42,805 nucleotides of DNA from Desulfobacterales bacterium (GTDB taxonomy: Bacteria > Desulfobacterota > Desulfobacteria > Desulfobacterales > SpSt-501). A program made the position numbers and the translations under genes. Below, in pieces: positions 1-42,805 of the stretch (positions are counted from its first letter, which is position 1; every line of letters starts with the position of its first letter). Under the pieces are notes generated by a model. The model saw only the letters and a list, made by a program, of their open reading frames with translations, ran no database searches and was not told the DNA's origin. The stretch spans positions 1 to 42,805 of the forward strand of contig JAUQXK010000146.1 in assembly GCA_030834695.1 (NCBI GenBank). The letters are read 5' to 3'.

Positions 1-1449
1 CTTGAGGATGGACTTCAGACTGCTGTAACTGGTGGCGCCGATCTCAAGCGCCCGCTGGCAGGCCATCTCCAGTCGCCTGGCGTCGTAGTCTTTTTCCAGC
101 CGCAGGATGCCCAAGGCCGAACGGAAGCCCTGCTGGGGAAGGCTCCGTGAGCTGATGACAGTCGTAATCAGGGTGGCGCAGGCCGGACCGATCTTCTGAG
201 CCCAGCGGCCGAAGCGCTCCGGGGTCCAGTCCAGCCATCGCTGATGGTTGGGGGGCATGTGCTCTTTGAGGGTGGTATGCCGGCCGCGCAGGTAGCTTCT
301 GATGTGGCTGGCGACCCGGGTGCTCTGGTAGAAGCATTCCACCGTGTGCGGGGTGTAGCGCAGGTCGAGCTTTTTTCTGACCAGCCGGTAGGGGACACTG
401 TAGTAATGGCCGTCGAGTTCGACGTGGTAGTCGATGTGGACCGTGGCCTTTTTCCATTCGGCGAACTGGTAGGGCCGATCCGGAAGCGCTCTGAGAGCGG
501 GCTTGTCGATCTCCAGGAAGGCCGAGTGCCGACTGCCGGGCAGCTTTTGGAAGGGCCGGTGGTTGAGCGCTTCGAGCAGTTCACCGATTCTACGGTTTAA
601 CTGGGCCAGGCTGAAGAAGGTCTCGTTTCGGATGCGCGCGAGGATCCAGCGCTCGACCACCAGCACGCCGCTTTCCACCTTGGCCTTGTCGCGGGGTTTT
701 TTAACCCGGGTGGGCAGGATGGCCGTGCCGTAGTGGTGGGCCATCTCCAGATAGCTCGGGTTTAGGTCCGGCTCGTAGAAACAGGCTTTGCTGATCCCGG
801 TTTTGGTGTTGTCGGGCACCACGGCGCGGGAAGCCCCGCCGAAGAAGGCAAACGCCCGACAGTGAGCGCCGATCCAATCGCCAAGGGCTTGGCTTAACGT
901 GGCCTCGGCATAGCTGCAGTTGGAAGCCGCCAGCACCGCAACGAAAATGGAGGCCTGCTTCTGGCTGCCGGAGAGCGCATCGACAATGGGAACCGTCATC
1001 CCGGCCCAGTCGACGCAAAGTGTCTCCCCGGCCCGGTGCTCCTGGCGCATGACCGGATCGATCCGCTCGGCCCACGTTCGATACAGATTGCAGAACTGGC
1101 TGTACTGGTAGCCGTCGGGATGCGTTGCCTTGTACTCCTGCCACAAAAGCATCAGGGTGACGGCTTTGCGGCGCAGTTCCCGGTGGATGTAAACAAAGTC
1201 CGGCGGCTGCCGGGGCTGCTCCATCACAACAGGGGGCGGCGGGAACAGCAGCGCTTCCAGCTGTGCGTCGTCGGTCTCAGCCGAAAGCGGCCAAGTGAGC
1301 CCCGAGGCCGCAAAACGCATGAGATACTCGGCGACGGTGCTTCGGGCGATTTTACAGCTGGTGGCGATCTGTCGCTTGGTCAGATGACAGTTGAAAAAAA
1401 GACGCAGCACTTCACGGATCTTTCGCATGGTCAACCTCGTGGCCGGCAT
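1..1449 (-). CDS. istA: IS21-family transposase IstA (3' end outside window)
   Basis: The minus strand has an uninterrupted frame of 483 codons from an ATG at 1449 to the window edge, where it is cut. An AGGAGG ribosome binding site lies 4 nt upstream. The N-terminus carries a helix-turn-helix (LTKRQIATSCKIARSTVAEY). A DDE integrase core follows, with the triad visible in LCVDWAGMTVP, VVPDNTKTGI and KAKVESGV. The C-terminal part (HYYSVPYRLV, then RWLDWTPERFGRWA) is the usual IstA mu-type domain. IstA with the IstB ATPase catalyses IS21 transposition; istB would lie beyond base 1. The frame looks intact. The family call is firm; whether the element is complete cannot be judged. Confidence 0.93.
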   Translation of the reverse strand, partial: MPATRLTMRKIREVLRLFFNCHLTKRQIATSCKIARSTVAEYLMRFAASGLTWPLSAETDDAQLEALLFPPPPVVMEQPRQPPDFVYIHRELRRKAVTLMLLWQEYKATHPDGYQYSQFCNLYRTWAERIDPVMRQEHRAGETLCVDWAGMTVPIVDALSGSQKQASIFVAVLAASNCSYAEATLSQALGDWIGAHCRAFAFFGGASRAVVPDNTKTGISKACFYEPDLNPSYLEMAHHYGTAILPTRVKKPRDKAKVESGVLVVERWILARIRNETFFSLAQLNRRIGELLEALNHRPFQKLPGSRHSAFLEIDKPALRALPDRPYQFAEWKKATVHIDYHVELDGHYYSVPYRLVRKKLDLRYTPHTVECFYQSTRVASHIRSYLRGRHTTLKEHMPPNHQRWLDWTPERFGRWAQKIGPACATLITTVISSRSLPQQGFRSALGILRLEKDYDARRLEMACQRALEIGATSYSSLKSILK

Positions 1450-4191: not shown

Positions 4192-4231
4192 AAAAAAAGC
4201 CGGCCTCCCTTATTATAATGGCAGCCCGGCT
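4192..4231 (-). terminator. Intrinsic terminator of GEMM leader A
   Basis: Read on the minus strand, AGCCGGGCTGCC pairs with GGGAGGCCGGCT (12 pairs, two mismatches) and is followed by a run of seven T. The 5' arm overlaps the 3' end of the preceding aptamer, so aptamer and terminator are mutually exclusive. That arrangement fits a transcriptional ON switch; this is inference from geometry. Confidence 0.75.
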
Positions 4232-4370
4232 ATCCCCTTAGGTTGAAGACTTAAAGCAAATAGTTCAAGAGAACCTGCAGAAACCCGCAGGAAAAAGTTC
4301 TGTCAGCTTTAAGCAACAACAGATCTGGACCCATGGCTTTCCGTTTCCCTGTTTCCCGAGATTTGGCTTT
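4220..4370 (-). promoter_or_regulatory. Cyclic-di-GMP-I (GEMM) type riboswitch, copy A
   Basis: The minus-strand RNA contains AAATCTCGGGAAACAGGG followed by AACGGAAAGCCATGGGTCC, matching the GEMM-I core (a GAAA-type capped hairpin, then ACGnAAAGCnAnGGG). After a long variable hairpin (CTTAAAGC pairs with GCTTTAAG), the 3' strand GATAGCCGGGCTGCC follows. It is very similar in order and sequence to copy B near 7.0 kb. GEMM-I RNAs bind cyclic di-GMP; some Geobacter members prefer cGAMP, so the ligand is not certain. It heads the 230-aa lipoprotein gene. Confidence 0.72.
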
Positions 4371-4385
4371 TTCCTTTTAAACCTG

Positions 4386-6969: not shown

Positions 6970-7108
6970 ATCCGCTTAGGTTGAAAACTTAAAGCCAGTG
7001 GTTCAGGAGATCCAGTAGAAGCGCGCAGGAAAAAGTGATGTTGGCTTTAAGCAACAACAATTTTGGACCCGTGGCTTTCCGTCTCCCAGTTTCCCAGGAT
7101 TTGGCTTT
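6959..7108 (-). promoter_or_regulatory. Cyclic-di-GMP-I (GEMM) type riboswitch, copy B
   Basis: The minus-strand RNA reads AAATCCTGGGAAACTGGG then GACGGAAAGCCACGGGTCC, a close match to the GEMM-I core. A variable arm closed by CTTAAAGCCA/TGGCTTTAAG and the 3' strand GATAACCGGGCTGCC follow. It shares most positions with copy A, about 2.7 kb away, so the two are duplicates or co-transferred. It heads the frameshifted secreted protein and possibly the DUF2846 and protease genes after it. Confidence 0.75.
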
Positions 7109-7120
7109 AACTTGGTAGTT

Positions 7121-35689: not shown

Positions 35690-35757
35690 GCACCCAGCTT
35701 GCTTGGCCCCTTAGAGTTCGACCAGCCCGCCCGTGTCCGCAGGCGGTACCGTTATTC

Positions 35758-35935
35758 GGCTAGGCAGGTCTTCTGGCTTCCCCCCTCTTCTGGCGACCTT
35801 CCCATCCCGCTCATACGAAACAGTGGTCATCCGGGGCCAGAAGAGTTCCCGGCAATCGGCACCGGGGAGGGATTACAGCGGCGGGACCGCCCCCGATTCT
35901 CACGGGGTTCCCTATTAAGTGCAAACACCTCGCCG
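35758..35935 (-). promoter_or_regulatory. Cobalamin riboswitch of the minus-strand cob operon
   Basis: Read on the minus strand: GCACTTAATAGGGAACCC, GTGAGAATCGGGGGCGGTCC, CGCCGCTGTAATCC and a final GCCAGAAGACCTGCC, in the order of the conserved B12 element. Adenosylcobalamin binding normally reduces expression. It would control btuC through at least cbiD and possibly the whole run to coaBC. Confidence 0.95.
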
Positions 35936-35949
35936 AAATCAATGCCTAT

Positions 35950-36071: not shown

Positions 36072-36083
36072 CAGCCTCAAAAA

Positions 36084-36284
36084 TTGGTTTGCAGCCTGAC
36101 GGCGCCTTTCGAGGCTCAATAGGGAATCCGGTGATATTCCGGAACGGACCCGCCGCTGTGACCCCGCCCCGCTTTCGAAGATCGCGGGGAACCCTCCTGG
36201 CATGGTTCGGCCACTGCTTCGCTCCGGCGGAGCGGGAAGGCGGCCAGGGGGGCGGGACAGTCAGAAGACCTGCCGTCTGGCTCG
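36084..36284 (+). promoter_or_regulatory. Cobalamin riboswitch of cobT
   Basis: Conserved B12-element blocks in order are CAATAGGGAATCCGGTGA, CCCGCCGCTGTGACCCC, the GGAAGGCGGCCAGG stretch and CAGAAGACCTGCCGTCTGG. A long GC-rich arm is inserted in the middle. It is on the plus strand and divergent from the other copy. Confidence 0.94.
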
Positions 36285-36301
36285 CTGAAGAGGAGATGGT
36301 A

Positions 36302-37626: not shown

Positions 37627-38355
37627 TCACGAGTGCCGGTGGGGCCGTGAGCCCAACGGGTGGGCGTGCAGGTGCTGGTGAACATGCAGTTCTTCGTCCC
37701 GGCGTATCCTGCCGTCTTCCATGGTGTAGATGAGGTCCGTCACGTTAGTCAGGAAATCGAGTTCGTGGGAGATCAAGATATAGGCGATATCGAGCTTGCC
37801 GAGGATCTCTGAGAGCTTGGCCCGCGTGCGGATGTCGAGTCCGTTTTCCGGTTCATCCAGGAGGAGCACTTCGGGTTCCATGGCCAGCACCGTCGCCAGG
37901 GAGACTAAACGTTTTTCCCCGCCGGAGAGCTTGAAGGTGATCCGATCCTCGAAGCCGTTCAACCCCAGGGCTGCCAGGGTCTGCCGTGCGATAGCGGCCG
38001 CCTCCGCTTTGGTCTTGCCCAGGTTGAGCGGCCCGAAGGCTACATCCTCCAAGACCGTGGGGCTGAAGAGCTGGTCGTCCGGGTCCTGGAACAGCAGGCC
38101 GATGCGGCGGCGCACTTCGGAAAATTCCTTTTCCTCCCGCAGTGCCTTGCCGAATATCGATATCTGCCCCGCGAGCGGCTTGACAAGGCCCATGATCAGG
38201 TGAAACAAAGTGGTCTTGCCGCTGCCGTTGGGGGCGATGACCCCGATGCGCTCCCCGGCGCACAGCGTGAAATCGAGATCGCGCAGAACCGGCGGCCCTC
38301 CCGGGTAGCCGAAGGTCACACCCTTTAAATCGATGATGGGAGTGGCAGTTGTCAT
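37627..38355 (-). CDS. cbiO: ECF metal transporter ATPase (CbiO/NikO)
   Basis: The protein is 242 aa from the ATG at 38355, although the nearest RBS (GGGAGG) is 17 nt away; a GTG at 38415 is an alternative that would overlap cbiQ. Walker A is IGVIAPNGSGKTTLFHLIMG, the Q loop LLFQDPDDQLFSPTVLEDVA, the signature FKLSGGEKRLVSLATVLAM, and Walker B VLLLDEPENGLD. The C-terminus is histidine-rich (HVHQHLHAHPLGSRPHRHS), fitting a metal-linked protein. It powers the CbiM/CbiQ transporter. Confidence 0.93.
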   Translation of the reverse strand: MTTATPIIDLKGVTFGYPGGPPVLRDLDFTLCAGERIGVIAPNGSGKTTLFHLIMGLVKPLAGQISIFGKALREEKEFSEVRRRIGLLFQDPDDQLFSPTVLEDVAFGPLNLGKTKAEAAAIARQTLAALGLNGFEDRITFKLSGGEKRLVSLATVLAMEPEVLLLDEPENGLDIRTRAKLSEILGKLDIAYILISHELDFLTNVTDLIYTMEDGRIRRDEELHVHQHLHAHPLGSRPHRHS

Positions 38356-38408
38356 GGCGTAATTATGCGGATCCTCCCGGCTGATTTCAATCAATAAATT
38401 GGGATGCC

Positions 38409-39170
38409 TCACCACGCGGCCAGCCGCAGCTCAAGGGCCGCAATCCCCGCGACGGCGGCCGAAATCAGAAGAAGGAAGACGAAGCTGCCCGCTCCGGCGT
38501 TGAATTCGTGCAGGCTATAGAACTTGCGCTTGAAGCCCCGGCACCGCATGGCCCATTGGACCCGCTCGGCGCGCTCGACGGCCCTTACGAACAGCATGCC
38601 CACCAGATAGGCGTACGTCCGATAGGTGTGAAAATTTGTGCCCGGCTGGAACCCGCGGATGCTGGCCGCCCGGACCAGGCGTTGGTATTCCTGCTCCAGT
38701 ACGAAAATATAGCGGTAGGTCATCAGGAAGAGGTGCACGATCTTGTCGGGCACCCGGAGATGGTGAAGGGCATGGCCCACGGTCGCCAGTGGCATCGTGG
38801 CGACTAGGGCCATGAAGGCGAGGACGATGGCATTGGACTTGAGCGTGATCTGGGCAGCCAGTTCGACGCCCTCCCGTGCCGCCCCGAACGGCCCCAGGCG
38901 AAACAGCGCCTCCCCGGGGAAGGTGAAGGGGATCACCGCCCAAATGCACACCACCAGCCCGTTGACGACCAGCAACCGTTTGAAGACCTCGGCGGTTCGC
39001 AGGCGGGCCAGCGCAACCAGCGCCATGGACAGAGCCAGGGCGGAGAGCAGCGCGGGGAACTCGCGACATAATGCCACCACGCACGAATAAACCGTGGCTG
39101 ATACCAGCCGGATGCGGGGATCGAGGCGGTGCAAGGGCGAGTCGCCGACGGCGAAAGGTTCGCTGAGCAT
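38409..39170 (-). CDS. cbiQ: ECF metal transporter T component (CbiQ/NikQ)
   Basis: The protein is 253 aa with several membrane helices. The two coupling motifs of ECF T subunits are visible: VRAASIRGFQPG and WAMRCRGFKRKFY. The N-terminal SPLHRLDPRIRLVSATVYS is also typical. It links the substrate-binding CbiM with the ATPase CbiO. The gene starts 12 bp after cooT. Confidence 0.94.
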   Translation of the reverse strand: MLSEPFAVGDSPLHRLDPRIRLVSATVYSCVVALCREFPALLSALALSMALVALARLRTAEVFKRLLVVNGLVVCIWAVIPFTFPGEALFRLGPFGAAREGVELAAQITLKSNAIVLAFMALVATMPLATVGHALHHLRVPDKIVHLFLMTYRYIFVLEQEYQRLVRAASIRGFQPGTNFHTYRTYAYLVGMLFVRAVERAERVQWAMRCRGFKRKFYSLHEFNAGAGSFVFLLLISAAVAGIAALELRLAAW

Positions 39171-39181
39171 GCAGGCGCCCT

Positions 39182-39370
39182 TCAGGAACCGAAGACAATG
39201 CGGTGATTTACCAGGTTCATGAGCTTCAAACGGGCCTTGACTGTTTTCTGCTGGCCGAAAATGTCGACCAGCAGGAACCCTCCATCTTCCTGCGGCTCGA
39301 CGCGGTCGACCGATTCCAGGATCAGTTCCTCCCGGCCGTCCTTATCGATATAGGCATTGGCTTCACACAT
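39182..39370 (-). CDS. cooT: CooT-family small nickel-binding protein
   Basis: The protein is 62 aa from the ATG at 39370. The start MCEANAYIDKDGREELILES and the middle VDIFGQQKTVKARLKLMNLV match the CooT family. Family members are small; Rhodospirillum CooT binds nickel for CO dehydrogenase maturation, with Cys2 as a ligand, and this Cys2 is present. The longer ORF start at 39439 lies inside the DUF3842 gene and is rejected. The 8-bp overlap with DUF3842 suggests coupling. Confidence 0.88.
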   Translation of the reverse strand: MCEANAYIDKDGREELILESVDRVEPQEDGGFLLVDIFGQQKTVKARLKLMNLVNHRIVFGS

Positions 39371-39785
39371 CGGGCAACACCTCCTTGAGTTTGTGGTGAA
39401 CCAGTTGTTGGACCAGGTGGGGTAAGGGTTCGCTGCCAACCCCTACCAGCAAGACGGGTTCCTGGGACAGCGGAAGAAATATCTTGGGGGCCGGGCTGGA
39501 CATGACCGCTTCGGCCATTTTCGGCGTGATCTCGCCGAGCATGGCATTGGCCCAACTGATGGAAATGGCCCCGACGATCACATCGACGCGCCGGCTGCTG
39601 ACAATGATGGCATTCTCGCCTGAAGCCGCCCGGTTGGCGCCCGCTTTAAGCATCTGGGCGGCGGCGATGGCATTGGTCCCCAAAGCGATCAGTTCAACCG
39701 CCTCGCCGTAAGCCTCTTTAAGATACCGGATGAGCGTGGCGCCGATGCCGCCGCCCTGGCCGTCGATGACGCAGATGCGTTTCAA
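39363..39785 (-). CDS. DUF3842 family protein
   Basis: The protein is 140 aa. RICVIDGQGGGIGATLIRYL is a glycine-rich Rossmann-like start, followed by VELIALGTNAIAAAQMLKAG and IVGAISISWANAMLGEITPK, which fit DUF3842. No function is established for this family. It lies inside a metal-transport operon between the NikL-like pair and CooT, so a role in metal handling is a reasonable guess. The C-terminus ends in a charged HHKLKEVLPDV. Confidence 0.8.
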   Translation of the reverse strand: MKRICVIDGQGGGIGATLIRYLKEAYGEAVELIALGTNAIAAAQMLKAGANRAASGENAIIVSSRRVDVIVGAISISWANAMLGEITPKMAEAVMSSPAPKIFLPLSQEPVLLVGVGSEPLPHLVQQLVHHKLKEVLPDV

Positions 39786-39894
39786 GAACAGATTCCTTGT
39801 TGGGTTCCCGTATCACCCTTCGACCAGGGGACAGATGGGAATTTCGTTCGACATTGGATAACGCAGAACACCGTTACCCGCATCCCTTCGGACA

Positions 39895-40236
39895 TCAAGA
39901 TTTGCGCTTGAAGTAGGCAGCCACCCCCACCAAGCCGAAGATATACCCGAGACCGCCGAGGACATCGGTCAGTCGTATTTTGGGTTCATGCATCTCCGCG
40001 AGCATTCTCATAACAGGCGCGAGCTTTTTGTCCAGCGCTTTTTCAATCACCTTGTCGATGCCTGCCGGCAGCGGCGATGCCGCAGCGGGAGAAGGTTCAT
40101 TTACCGCCGGGGCCTCGGTTTTCGCGGCGGGCTGGCGTGGATCCGGCGCCGGCGTGTTCTGGGCCAACGCGGCGCCGGCCGCCAGAAGCAGAAGAGTCGG
40201 CACCAGCCAAAACAGGTATAGCGTACGAACCCTCAT
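39895..40236 (-). CDS. Small membrane protein, NikL/CbiN C-terminal-like
   Basis: The protein is 113 aa from the ATG at 40236, with AAAGGAGG 5 nt upstream. It has its own signal peptide (YLFWLVPTLLLLAAGAALAQ), a proline/alanine linker, a helix (IEKALDKKLAPVMRMLAEMH) and a C-terminal anchor (VLGGLGYIFGLVGVAAYFKR). This looks like the membrane end that is often fused behind the NikL ectodomain. A frame extending upstream to 40554 is not protein-like. Recognition of the fused form is from memory. Confidence 0.72.
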   Translation of the reverse strand: MRVRTLYLFWLVPTLLLLAAGAALAQNTPAPDPRQPAAKTEAPAVNEPSPAAASPLPAGIDKVIEKALDKKLAPVMRMLAEMHEPKIRLTDVLGGLGYIFGLVGVAAYFKRKS

Positions 40237-40312
40237 AAAGCCTCCTTTGGAATTTAGCCCGGCAGCATGGACGGTTGGACTCTCTTGGAGAGCTATGATG
40301 TCGAGGATATCG

Positions 40313-40642
40313 TCAGGGCGCAAGATCCTGCTTGGATATGGGCCATTCGGCCCGATGGCCCATGCCGGCATCGAGCACGATTTTGAGGTCGTCGATCTTG
40401 GGCACCTTGAACGAAAACTCCCCCTTGTCGTTCGTCTTGCCGTTGAGAAGCTCTTTGCCGGCGGAATCCAAAACCCGGATGACACCCTCGTGCACTTTGG
40501 TGCCGTCCGGGTACTTGCACTCGACGAAAACCGTGTCCCCTTCGACCCAGGCAAATATGTTCACCCGGTGGGCCGAGGCCGGGACGGCTGCGATAAGAAT
40601 CCCTATCAAACAACAAACCTTCAAAAGCATTCGAATGCTCAC
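40313..40642 (-). CDS. nikL: NikL-like periplasmic component of ECF metal transporter
   Basis: The protein is 109 aa. The GTG at 40642 overlaps the cbiM stop (GTGA) with AAGGAGG just upstream. A signal peptide ends in PASAHRVNIFAWVEGDTVFV, so the mature protein would begin with a His-containing segment close to the start, as in NikL. A carboxypeptidase-regulatory-like beta domain follows (NGKTNDKGEFSFKVPKIDDL, ending DAGMGHRAEW). NikL replaces NikN/CbiN in many nickel ECF systems. It has no membrane anchor of its own. Confidence 0.82.
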   Translation of the reverse strand: MSIRMLLKVCCLIGILIAAVPASAHRVNIFAWVEGDTVFVECKYPDGTKVHEGVIRVLDSAGKELLNGKTNDKGEFSFKVPKIDDLKIVLDAGMGHRAEWPISKQDLAP

Positions 40643-41256
40643 GAAACCTCCTTGGGGGAATGTCCCGGCAGCATCGCAGGTTGGACTTTTCTGAGAAAGG
40701 CCACGCAAAGGGCCGTTACAAGGCCCTCAATGATCATGACCGGCAGGTGCGCCGCAACAACGGCCGCCGCAACTTCGAAGAAGTTCTCTTCGGTGAACAC
40801 CAACGCCAGGCCGACGATGAGGCCTCCGATGCATACGGCCATGAAACCGCAGGCGAAAGCCGCGGCGAGGGCGACGGGTCGGCTGCGTCGCAGCAGCGGA
40901 GAGAACGCATAATAGCAGGCCACCGCGGGCACGGCCATGATGACGGTGTTGACCCCCAGCGCTGTAATGCCGCCGAATTGGAAGAAAACCGCCTGCAGGG
41001 CCAGCGCCACAAGGATGGCGGGGAAAGCCGCCCACCCGAGAAGCAGCCCGACAATGCCGTTCAGGATCAGGTGCACGCTCGTCGGTCCCAACGGCACATG
41101 GACCAGGGAGGCTACGAAAAATACGCCTGAGAGCATCCCGGTCCGGGCGATTTCATCGTAGTCCAGTTTTTTCAGCCCGATGGCGGTGCCGGCCGCAGCC
41201 ATGGCAGCACCGGACAGAAGCACCGGACCGGAAAGAACCCCTTCGGAAATATGCAT
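40639..41256 (-). CDS. cbiM: ECF metal transporter substrate-binding protein (CbiM/NikM)
   Basis: The protein is 205 aa. The invariant N-terminus MHISEGVLSGP, in which Met1 and His2 coordinate the metal, is present. Membrane helices and conserved SLVHVPLGPTSVHLILNGIV, GGITALGVNTVIMAVPAVAC and AAHLPVMIIEGLVTALC follow. It binds Ni2+ or Co2+. The NikL partner argues for nickel. It is the first gene of the transporter operon. No cobalamin or NiCo riboswitch was recognised in the 280 bp upstream. Confidence 0.93.
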   Translation of the reverse strand: MHISEGVLSGPVLLSGAAMAAAGTAIGLKKLDYDEIARTGMLSGVFFVASLVHVPLGPTSVHLILNGIVGLLLGWAAFPAILVALALQAVFFQFGGITALGVNTVIMAVPAVACYYAFSPLLRRSRPVALAAAFACGFMAVCIGGLIVGLALVFTEENFFEVAAAVVAAHLPVMIIEGLVTALCVAFLRKVQPAMLPGHSPKEVS

Positions 41257-41363
41257 TAGGATAGTTTCTAAATTTAAGGGTTAAAGTTGAAAGTTGAAGG
41301 TGCGGCATACAAAATCTCTGGATGCTGGCACTTCCATCTGGAGCAGCCCGTCCAGCTCATTTT

Positions 41364-41411
41364 GTGGGAGTGGCTTTCCAGCCACGATCATCGAGGCTGA
41401 AAGCCTCCCAC
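41364..41411. repeat. REP-like palindrome, copy 2
   Basis: GTGGGAGTGGCTTTCCAGCC with the inverse GGCTGAAAGCCTCCCAC around an ATCATCG loop closely resembles the palindrome at 27714-27762. It lies upstream of cbiM. Confidence 0.72.
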
Positions 41412-41439
41412 GGGGATGCAAAAAAACGAAATTGCAGGG

Positions 41440-41472
41440 CCTGGAAGGCGAGGTGGAATCTCGCTCTCCAGG
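41440..41472 (-). terminator. Possible terminator after the porin gene
   Basis: CCTGGAGAGCGAG and CTCGCCTTCCAGG form a stem with two internal mismatches on the minus strand; a T7 run follows about 12 nt later. The position downstream of the porin gene fits, but the distance to the T run makes it uncertain. Confidence 0.45.
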
Positions 41473-41538
41473 CTGGCTGCAGGAGTCTAATTCAATACAC
41501 TGCGCTTGGCAACTAATGCCGACGCCGTTGCTGCAGCT

Positions 41539-42804
41539 TCAGAAGTTGAACTCGGCCCGCAGCATGCCGGCGAAGATGCCGTCGTTGTCCGAGTCGCCGC
41601 CGGGGTTCCAGACGTACTGGACATCCGGGGTGAAGGCCAGGTTCTCGGTCACCGCGATGCGGTAGTAGACCTCCAGGTGGTATTCAGGGTTGTTTTGATC
41701 ATAATTATCCCCCGGGGTCAGCGCCGCAAAGCCCACCCCCAGATTGTCCTCGTCGCGGCCGGGGATCAGCCCCTTGAGGTTCACACCCCCGGAGGCCTCC
41801 CACTGCACCACGTAGACATCCTCGTTGTTCCAGCCGAAGCGGCCGAAGAGCCCGATCATCTCAGTGATCTGCTGGTCGGCGGAAACCCCGATGCCCCAGC
41901 CCTTGTCCTTCTCGCCGTCGATGGGGTTGCGGCCGGCGTCGAGCTTGGTATGGTCGTAGCCGGCCTGCCAGCCGTAGAGCCGGTAGTTGCCCTCCAGCTC
42001 CCCGAACTTGGGCGAGAAGGTGATCTGGCCGCCGATGAAGGGCGTGCTGAAGACGTTGTCGTACTTGCTCTTGGCGGTGTTCTCCAGCGAGGTGCCCTCC
42101 ACATACGGCCGCGAGGTGGAGGCACCAATTAACGTGAGGGAGAGCAGCTCGACGGGCTGGATCTTCACCCCGATCAACGGGGTGTACTCGTTCTCGCTGT
42201 CCAAAACCGTGTTGTTCACGAAGGGTTTGCCAACAAACTGCACGCCCTCGTCGTTGGCAAAGGCATTGTCGTCCAGAAATGCCAGTTGGCCGACCTTGCC
42301 GGCGGTGATGCTCAACTTCTTATCGAAGAAGTGATGGGTATAGTGGGCTTCCAGAAGCCGCAGCCCGGTGTCGTCGTTTTCGTCGGAGTTGTCGTCAGCG
42401 ATCGTGTTCAGGTTGCCCAGCAGCACGTCCGCCGGCTTGATGCTCCCGCCGCCGGTGCGGTCGGCACCCGTGCCGTTGCCGGCGTGGATGCGCACATAGA
42501 ACTCGCCGTCCTCAACCACCGGCAGGGCCGGGTGCCAGGTGAATTCCAGGTTGGCTGCGAAGCCGGCCCCGCTGGGGCTGTCAGCCTTCTCCCCGCCCAG
42601 CTCATCGGTCTGGCTGTCCTGGTAGTACAGGATCGCCCCCCCGTGGATCTCCAGCGTGCCGAAACGCTCCTCCAGGGCCTCGCCGATCTTTTCCTCGATG
42701 CCCGCCTCGGTCTTGGCCGCCTGCCGCTTGGCCAGCGCCTCCTGCTCCTCGAGCTTCTCCTCGAGCTCCTCGATCCGTTCCTTGAGCGCTTGGATCTCCT
42801 TCAT
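41539..42804 (-). CDS. OprB-type carbohydrate porin (5' part may lie outside window)
   Basis: 421 residues are visible and the frame may continue past the window edge; a signal peptide is missing, so the first visible Met is probably internal. The N-terminus is a coiled coil (IQALKERIEELEEKLEEQEA). A barrel of alternating strands follows, with YYRIAVTENLAFTPDVQYVW and a terminal phenylalanine (AGMLRAEFNF) for outer-membrane insertion. This pattern fits the OprB carbohydrate-selective porin family. The true substrate is unknown. Confidence 0.85.
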   Translation of the reverse strand: MKEIQALKERIEELEEKLEEQEALAKRQAAKTEAGIEEKIGEALEERFGTLEIHGGAILYYQDSQTDELGGEKADSPSGAGFAANLEFTWHPALPVVEDGEFYVRIHAGNGTGADRTGGGSIKPADVLLGNLNTIADDNSDENDDTGLRLLEAHYTHHFFDKKLSITAGKVGQLAFLDDNAFANDEGVQFVGKPFVNNTVLDSENEYTPLIGVKIQPVELLSLTLIGASTSRPYVEGTSLENTAKSKYDNVFSTPFIGGQITFSPKFGELEGNYRLYGWQAGYDHTKLDAGRNPIDGEKDKGWGIGVSADQQITEMIGLFGRFGWNNEDVYVVQWEASGGVNLKGLIPGRDEDNLGVGFAALTPGDNYDQNNPEYHLEVYYRIAVTENLAFTPDVQYVWNPGGDSDNDGIFAGMLRAEFNF

Positions 42805-42805
42805 G

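Follow-up and report, generated by a model that had tools for sequence, protein, structure and literature searches.

Energy-coupling factor (ECF) nickel transporters of the NikKMLQO or NikM(K)LQO type are described from Desulfovibrio, Desulfotalea, cable bacteria, Synechocystis and Brucella. Their accessory subunit NikL has, to our knowledge, no assigned mechanism. NikK together with NikL in the absence of NikN represents the nickel-class composition (PMC2667541, PMC545781), and deletion of NikKLMQO in Synechocystis causes a growth and enzyme phenotype that is rescued by nickel and not by cobalt (PMC5904137). Here we analyse an operon of this known type in a 42,805-nucleotide stretch (the window) corresponding to contig JAUQXK010000146.1 (C91) of the Desulfobacterales bacterium assembly GCA_030834695.1, from a relative of sulfate reducers. 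We consider it probable that this operon encodes a NikKMLQO-type, nickel-class importer and that a small duplication divided its NikL gene in two. The cut in NikL and the DUF3842–CooT pair encoded between NikL and the energising components give ideas that are new and testable.

The Pfam and NCBIfam models bear out the gene order given in the original prediction (cbiM, NikL ectodomain, small membrane protein, DUF3842, cooT, cbiQ and cbiO, all on the minus strand; Table 1); the interval 39182-41256, to which that prediction referred, spans cbiM to cooT only, with cbiQ and cbiO outside it. The M, Q and O components all lie in one operon, as in NikKMLQO systems. CbiM, for which 4m58 and 4m5b are solved structural relatives, is the sole CbiM match in the genome, and the cbiO product scores 171-192 bits with the best NCBIfam models for ECF ATPases or CbiO, each time under the model's own cut-off. 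No NikN/CbiN was found among the eight operon proteins scanned, a search that did not extend to the rest of the genome. The window thus shares CbiM/NikM, NikL, NikQ and NikO with the described transporters, and its relatives share DUF4198 (NikK); it differs from them in the two-gene NikL, in the presence of DUF3842 and cooT between nikL and cbiQ, and in an OprB-like porin upstream.

The NikL family model (NF058648, 180 positions; HI1622) describes one polypeptide that joins ectodomain and anchor. In the window this single-chain architecture is absent, and its sequence content is spread over two open reading frames that tile the model without overlap (3-98, then 101-179), jointly aligning to positions 3-179, with a second ribosome-binding site (RBS), start and signal-like segment. 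The first piece exceeds the family cut-off of 100, while the second alone stays below it, and the genome holds no further NikL match. That ectodomain and anchor occupy separate genes, each with its own RBS and signal peptide, had been proposed from the outset and agrees with our data: an RBS was found for both (CCAAGGAGGTTTC-GTG for nikL-N, the GTG overlapping the cbiM stop, and CCAAAGGAGGCTTT-ATG for nikL-C), and both N-terminal segments are signal-like, the signal segments and cleavage sites having been judged by eye.

Both halves look constrained: relative to the fused NikL of the related locus L010, the ratio of nonsynonymous to synonymous divergence (dN/dS) is 0.095 for nikL-N and 0.097 for nikL-C (0.113 for CbiM), a pairwise measure that pools the time before and after the split. 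nikL-C aligns to the L010 protein downstream of its DLAP residues, and its helix/anchor part keeps 47 of 56 residues with a dN/dS of 0.06. Together with the strong RBS and start of nikL-C and the comparable two-gene NikL found elsewhere, this makes it very improbable that nikL-C is a decaying remnant beside a self-sufficient NikL-N, or that faulty assembly or sequencing has produced the split, although in the genus the split occurs in only one of the four genomes with a NikL match, and the assembly consists of 149 contigs with an estimated contamination of 4.96%. A duplicated-read artefact would, moreover, not be expected to give the diverged leader copies described below. A frameshift or pseudogene as the cause of the split was rejected in view of the leader copy, the second RBS and start, and the constraint on both halves. 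The original prediction had set against itself a fused NikL in related genomes with a frameshift here; fused relatives were indeed found in three genomes of the same genus, whereas no frameshift was, the second RBS and start being supplied by the duplicated leader.

This leader, comprising the cbiM 3' end, the RBS and the nikL start, occurs a second time in diverged form between the two nikL pieces. Positions 40687-40626 and 40281-40220 align locally with a score of 46, while dinucleotide shuffles gave a mean of 17.4 (standard deviation 2.4, maximum 30) and none of 2000 reached 46; the best alternative site for the leader copy in the window scores 37 in a 27-base GC-rich match. When the scoring is relaxed, a setting that has no null, the similarity reaches as far as the probable site of signal-peptide cleavage. 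The fused L010 NikL continues through DLAP into the linker, whereas the window has a stop right after these residues.

Local duplication of the leader is the simplest reading of the split. Against it weighs the observation that the second copy scores higher against the cbiM end of L010 (58, with a null maximum of 32 in 500 shuffles) than against the window's own, because of which acquisition from an L010-like relative is conceivable; to the cbiM ends of L003, L005, L006, L013 and L038 the copy shows similarity at null level only. As a general route to split NikL, leader duplication is unsupported, since at none of 21 other split loci does it exceed the locus's own shuffle maximum (G172/L136 is borderline, with 1 of 500 shuffles reaching the score, and L134 comes next, with 6 of 500), and it is visible only in the window.

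Table 1. Features of the operon and its upstream region (positions in the window).
Feature	Position	Strand	Evidence or remark
cbiM/nikM, ECF substrate-specific component	40639..41256	-	PF01891 196 bits; NF004905 278 bits
nikL-N, signal-like segment and NikL ectodomain	40313..40642	-	NF058648 positions 3-98, 108.7 bits
nikL-C, a second signal-like segment followed by a linker rich in Pro and Ala, a charged helical stretch and a hydrophobic anchor at the C-terminus	39895..40236	-	NF058648 positions 101-179, 72.8 bits
DUF3842 protein, TTG start	39363..39785	-	PF12953 180.4 bits (cut-off 28.5)
cooT, 8-nt overlap with the DUF3842 gene end	39182..39370	-	PF10133 86.6 bits (cut-off 27)
cbiQ/nikQ, ECF T component	38409..39170	-	PF02361 126 bits; TIGR02454 155 bits
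cbiO/nikO, ECF ATPase	37627..38415	-	PF00005 105 bits
Original leader (cbiM 3' end, RBS, nikL start)	40626..40687	-	Copied at 40220-40281
Diverged second leader copy between the nikL pieces, giving RBS and start of nikL-C	40220..40281	-	Local alignment
OprB-like porin, truncated at its 5' side where the contig stops	41539..42804	-	PF04966 127 bits; contig C91 ends at 42805

A search of seven genomes of one genus, including that of the window, gave NikL matches in four. In G001, G002 and G006 (apparently the sources of loci L010, L006 and L005, respectively) NikL is unbroken in the order cbiM-nikL-duf3842-cooT-cbiQ-cbiO, and the three genomes that gave no NikL match, G003, G004 and G005, have a completeness of 80-87%. 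In the phylum, the NikL model matched in at least 194 of 395 genomes. Among the matches listed we chose 28 loci in which the match is confined to about the first 110 model positions (the matches in G164, in G094 and on C112 of G218 are among those omitted, and the one chosen for G308 is not the best of that genome). Of these, 19 are split, with a separate NikL-C, which is a lower bound for the phylum since only some of the listed N-terminal-only matches were chosen; one (L158) is fused with a short C part, and eight have no recognised C part. The split loci are mostly ordered nikL-N, nikL-C, cbiM (16 of 19), with a single one (G172) in the window's order and two without CbiM in the stretch fetched. 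L011 and L024 among the relatives' loci are likewise split; given these and the 19 loci above, the two-gene NikL is not peculiar to this operon.

To this we add a quick CbiM tree with 57 rows, of which 37 are fused and 20 split. It carries only support from the Shimodaira–Hasegawa-like approximate likelihood ratio test (SH-aLRT), and it omits 16 unlabelled loci or second copies as well as those labelled loci, such as L145 and L146, that have no CbiM close by. On this tree the label needs three changes, and the starred branches force three. Because the window (inside a starred set of 16 rows, together with 15 fused ones) and G172 (amid fused rows of its family) each lie among fused rows, at least two separate splits from the fused form are supported within the phylum; if the fused form were ancestral, there would be three.

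A role of the NikL ectodomain in metal handling is suggested by its histidines. All 48 NikL domains have a His preceded by A, C, T, G or S where cleavage is likely, as judged by eye, and a Gly-His farther along the chain; an alignment of 47 sequences that starts at the leading His has G71 and H72 in every row, and this invariance is independent of the choice of cleavage site. In the window the likely mature part of nikL-N, 40316-40570, has His first. In the crystal of a DUF4198 protein, Ni2+ is held by His1 and His18 in a "histidine brace" with a dissociation constant (Kd) of 18 nM, and related His1 "anglerase" (Ang-1/Ang-2) domains are fused to HupE permeases (PMC12537917). NikL likewise has a His at the likely mature N-terminus and a second conserved His, and by this analogy we predict that it may be a further histidine-brace nickel carrier. 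The tie to a membrane partner is likewise a feature of the Ang domains, whereas the NikL ectodomain of the window has lost its tether. The ectodomain was modelled by AlphaFold2 as a beta-sandwich with a predicted local distance difference test score (pLDDT) of 96; its best VIA match is the MG1 domain of E. coli alpha-2-macroglobulin (Z 13.5, root-mean-square deviation 1.6, 78 aligned), and the next unrelated entry has Z 9.8. The model, a macroglobulin/Ig-like sandwich, sets it apart from the proteins of PMC12537917, in the main text of which NikL is not mentioned. Folds similar to CopC or to lytic polysaccharide monooxygenases were absent from the listed structure matches, which excludes nothing. 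Divergent NikL-like proteins with the same leading His stand beside DUF3842-CooT in L024 (6705-6968, plus strand), L058 (5554-5817, plus) and L081 (4007-4270, plus), in loci that also contain TonB/ExbBD genes.

The claim that the operon imports nickel and not cobalt holds in part: the nickel-class composition is supported, and the specificity for nickel, as originally worded, is not. We class the importer as NikKMLQO-type and nickel-class because its relatives carry DUF4198 (nikK) and an OprB porin upstream, and by analogy with the described systems we infer that nickel rather than cobalt would be the substrate. The regulatory evidence weighs against this. NikR regulation, usual though not defining for NikKMLQO transporters, is missing in that NikR_C has no match in the genome; no nickel/cobalt riboswitch reaches the gathering score upstream of the operon, where a permissive search of 40900-42805 gave two weak chance-level hits only; and a scan with the delta-proteobacterial and E. 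coli NikR consensus, run without a chance control, revealed no convincing site. With the delta-proteobacterial consensus there was no site at up to three mismatches in L086-L088, L127, L128 and window 41001-42805, hits within cooT in L013 (two mismatches) and L003 (three), and additional three-mismatch hits in L003 and L038 distant from where the operon begins. For the E. coli consensus, L086 had two hits with three mismatches and L127 had one, all of them elsewhere than immediately before nikK or cbiM, and L038 had a two-mismatch hit between cbiM and nikL.

The neighbourhood raises the same doubt, since the operon adjoins cobalamin riboswitches and B12 genes, in G001 as well as here, and cobalt uptake has been predicted for five NikK1ML1QO systems near B12 genes (PMC2667541). 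With no second CbiM match in the genome, this could indicate a cobalt importer that is assembled from Nik-type parts and feeds the neighbouring B12 pathway. We regard such a function as unlikely: the operon has no riboswitch of its own, the two downstream genes in G006 encode a pantothenate kinase and a DFP flavoprotein and not B12 functions, NikK and NikL are nickel-class components (PMC2667541, PMC545781), and the operon encodes CooT, a reported nickel binder (PMC6006190). The two cobalamin riboswitches are divergent and lie back to back at 35746-35947 (minus) and 36083-36291 (plus) of the window; the same pair is found in L086 at 540-741 (minus) and 835-1042 (plus). In the genome we found two catalytic subunits of CO dehydrogenase, which count in favour of the nickel-class reading, and two proteins of the hybrid-cluster/hydroxylamine reductase kind.

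Upstream of the nickel-class operon, an OprB-like porin directly precedes cbiM in L005, L006, L013 and L038, and in L005 and L006 a DUF4198 gene, the porin and cbiM are contiguous. The window's genome has a single DUF4198 match. It lies at one edge of contig C45, next to the start of a porin that is cut off there; the rest of a porin occupies an edge of C91, which would fit the DUF4198-porin arrangement of L005 and L006. The identity of this DUF4198 gene as NikK is our own assignment; this, and its location on another contig than the operon, count against the NikKMLQO-type reading. The porin versions at C45 (L127 3-671, minus) and C91 (41539-42804, minus) overlap yet differ, and the break between the contigs is a matter of a tandem porin or strain variation. 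Elsewhere in the window there are two c-di-GMP-I riboswitch matches above the gathering score, at 4217-4377 and 7047-7115, both on the minus strand.

Between nikL and cbiQ the operon encodes the DUF3842–CooT pair. We know of no function for DUF3842, and in the open-access literature searched no paper mentioning this name was found. The window CooT matches the 6fan CooT structure with an E-value of 1.4e-13 and begins with MCEA; it shares with the CO dehydrogenase accessory protein (PF10133; 6fan) the MC start with Cys2, the length and a clear profile match, and differs in being encoded next to DUF3842 in a transporter operon and not in a cooS operon. CooT of R. rubrum binds one Ni(II) per dimer with a Kd of 9 nM (PMC6006190), and Cys2 is the reported nickel ligand. 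In our data Cys2 is invariant in 80 of 80 CooT proteins, and Cys6 of DUF3842 is kept in 85 of 86.

The association of the two genes extends far beyond the window. Among 148 genomes of the phylum, 55 encode DUF3842 and 88 encode CooT, and each of the 55 has CooT (Fisher p ~1e-17, kinship ignored); cooT follows within 600 nt downstream on the same strand at 55 of 61 DUF3842 loci, which accounts for 55 of 118 CooT loci (one DUF3842 row under the family cut-off, G021 with 21.1 bits, is left out of this count). A closer comparison covered 80 DUF3842 loci, the best 80 of 147 relatives and so skewed to the window's kin; several are cut by contig ends, because of which missing markers may lie outside the stretch. 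Here cooT stands within 900 nt downstream in 75. The loci fall into 30 that sit with ispH, yacP or parB, none of them with a metal-uptake marker, and 50 of the window's kind, a default label, 31 of which carry such markers (DUF4198 18, NikL 16, TonB 13, ExbD 13, ExbB 12, TonB receptor 11, CbiM 9, CbiQ 7, PBP2 7, FecCD 5).

The DUF3842 tree correspondingly shows two lineages separated by a 100/99 branch (bootstrap not fully settled), the window grouping with L005, L006 and L010 (99/99). The default-labelled L055, L090, L092, L093 and L094 fall into the ispH lineage, and yacP and ispH stand beside L090 and L092-L094. This second lineage lies between yacP and ispH, next to parA-parB, in L092 (4110-8449) as well as in L090 and L094; CooT was seen in L090 and L092 and not in L094. 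The window's genome holds one pair of each lineage. CooT and DUF3842 do lie inside a nickel-class ECF operon, as first supposed, but a relay dedicated to this operon is not supported, since the pair is widespread, also accompanies uptake systems of other kinds and includes the further lineage at parAB-yacP-ispH. Some loci show further neighbours: SelD/YedF selenium genes near DUF3842 in L080 (4161-5767, named) and, by sequence cluster only, in L007 (4954-5550, YedF) and L052 (3610-4572, SelD), and a MerR regulator with B12-binding domains beside DUF3842-CooT in L009 (6720-7679, minus).

DUF3842 was modelled with a pLDDT of 94 as Rossmann-like. Its VIA search gave a best Z of 9.3 with many tied rows of NAD(P)-binding or Rossmann-type domains, a sequence search of the PDB gave no hit, and the best Foldseek match, a UbiX-like flavoprotein, has a TM-score of only 0.41; given this low score and the tied rows we claim no specific function. 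The pair might be a redox or nucleotide-sensing module of general use that entered the operon without a metal-delivery role, as the parAB-yacP-ispH lineage with its markerless 30 loci, the 19 of 50 loci of the window's kind that also show no uptake marker, and a modelled fold without an obvious metal site would suggest. We find this doubtful in view of the uptake markers at the other 31 loci and the invariance of Cys2, the reported nickel ligand. A nickel role is in turn weakened by the same 19 loci and by the 33 of 88 CooT genomes without DUF3842, and no common nickel-enzyme theme was apparent among seven and a further six DUF3842 neighbours at loci without uptake markers.

We suppose that the NikL split arose when the region of the cbiM 3' end, RBS and start, perhaps as far as the signal-peptide cleavage site, was duplicated into the linker just after the DLAP codons. 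The first piece would then give a soluble periplasmic ectodomain, and the second a separately exported linker with the membrane anchor. Metal may cross the outer membrane, perhaps via the OprB-like porin. Ni2+ would be brought to NikM by NikK (DUF4198) and by the ectodomain freed from NikL, both of which have a His at the likely mature N-terminus; the NikL-C anchor would remain in the membrane beside NikM, and NikQ and NikO would power transport. In the cytoplasm, CooT may take the metal via Cys2 and pass it toward users such as CO dehydrogenase, with DUF3842 as its putative Rossmann-like, nucleotide-binding partner. The analysis demonstrates which genes are present, that NikL is split and its leader duplicated, that relatives have it fused, and that DUF3842 pairs with CooT; the choice of nickel over cobalt, the way the metal flows, what each NikL piece does and the task of DUF3842 are the conjectural part of this scheme.

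Tentatively, these observations can be joined in a possible wider picture. DUF3842 and CooT would form a two-protein nickel-handling module, in which the nucleotide-dependent Rossmann partner loads CooT with nickel or releases nickel from it, and one lineage of which is deployed with whichever nickel or cobalt uptake system is used, ECF or TonB-linked; NikL would be a histidine-brace carrier whose tether is dispensable and was cut two or three separate times.

The histidine-brace reading would give NikL a metal site, and the natural split indicates that its ectodomain and anchor need not share one chain. The steady partnership of DUF3842 with the nickel protein CooT makes the function of DUF3842 directly testable, and brings CooT, described as an accessory of CO dehydrogenase, closer to a nickel acceptor of more general use. 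Finally, the duplicated leader represents a legible case of one secreted membrane protein becoming two secreted proteins.

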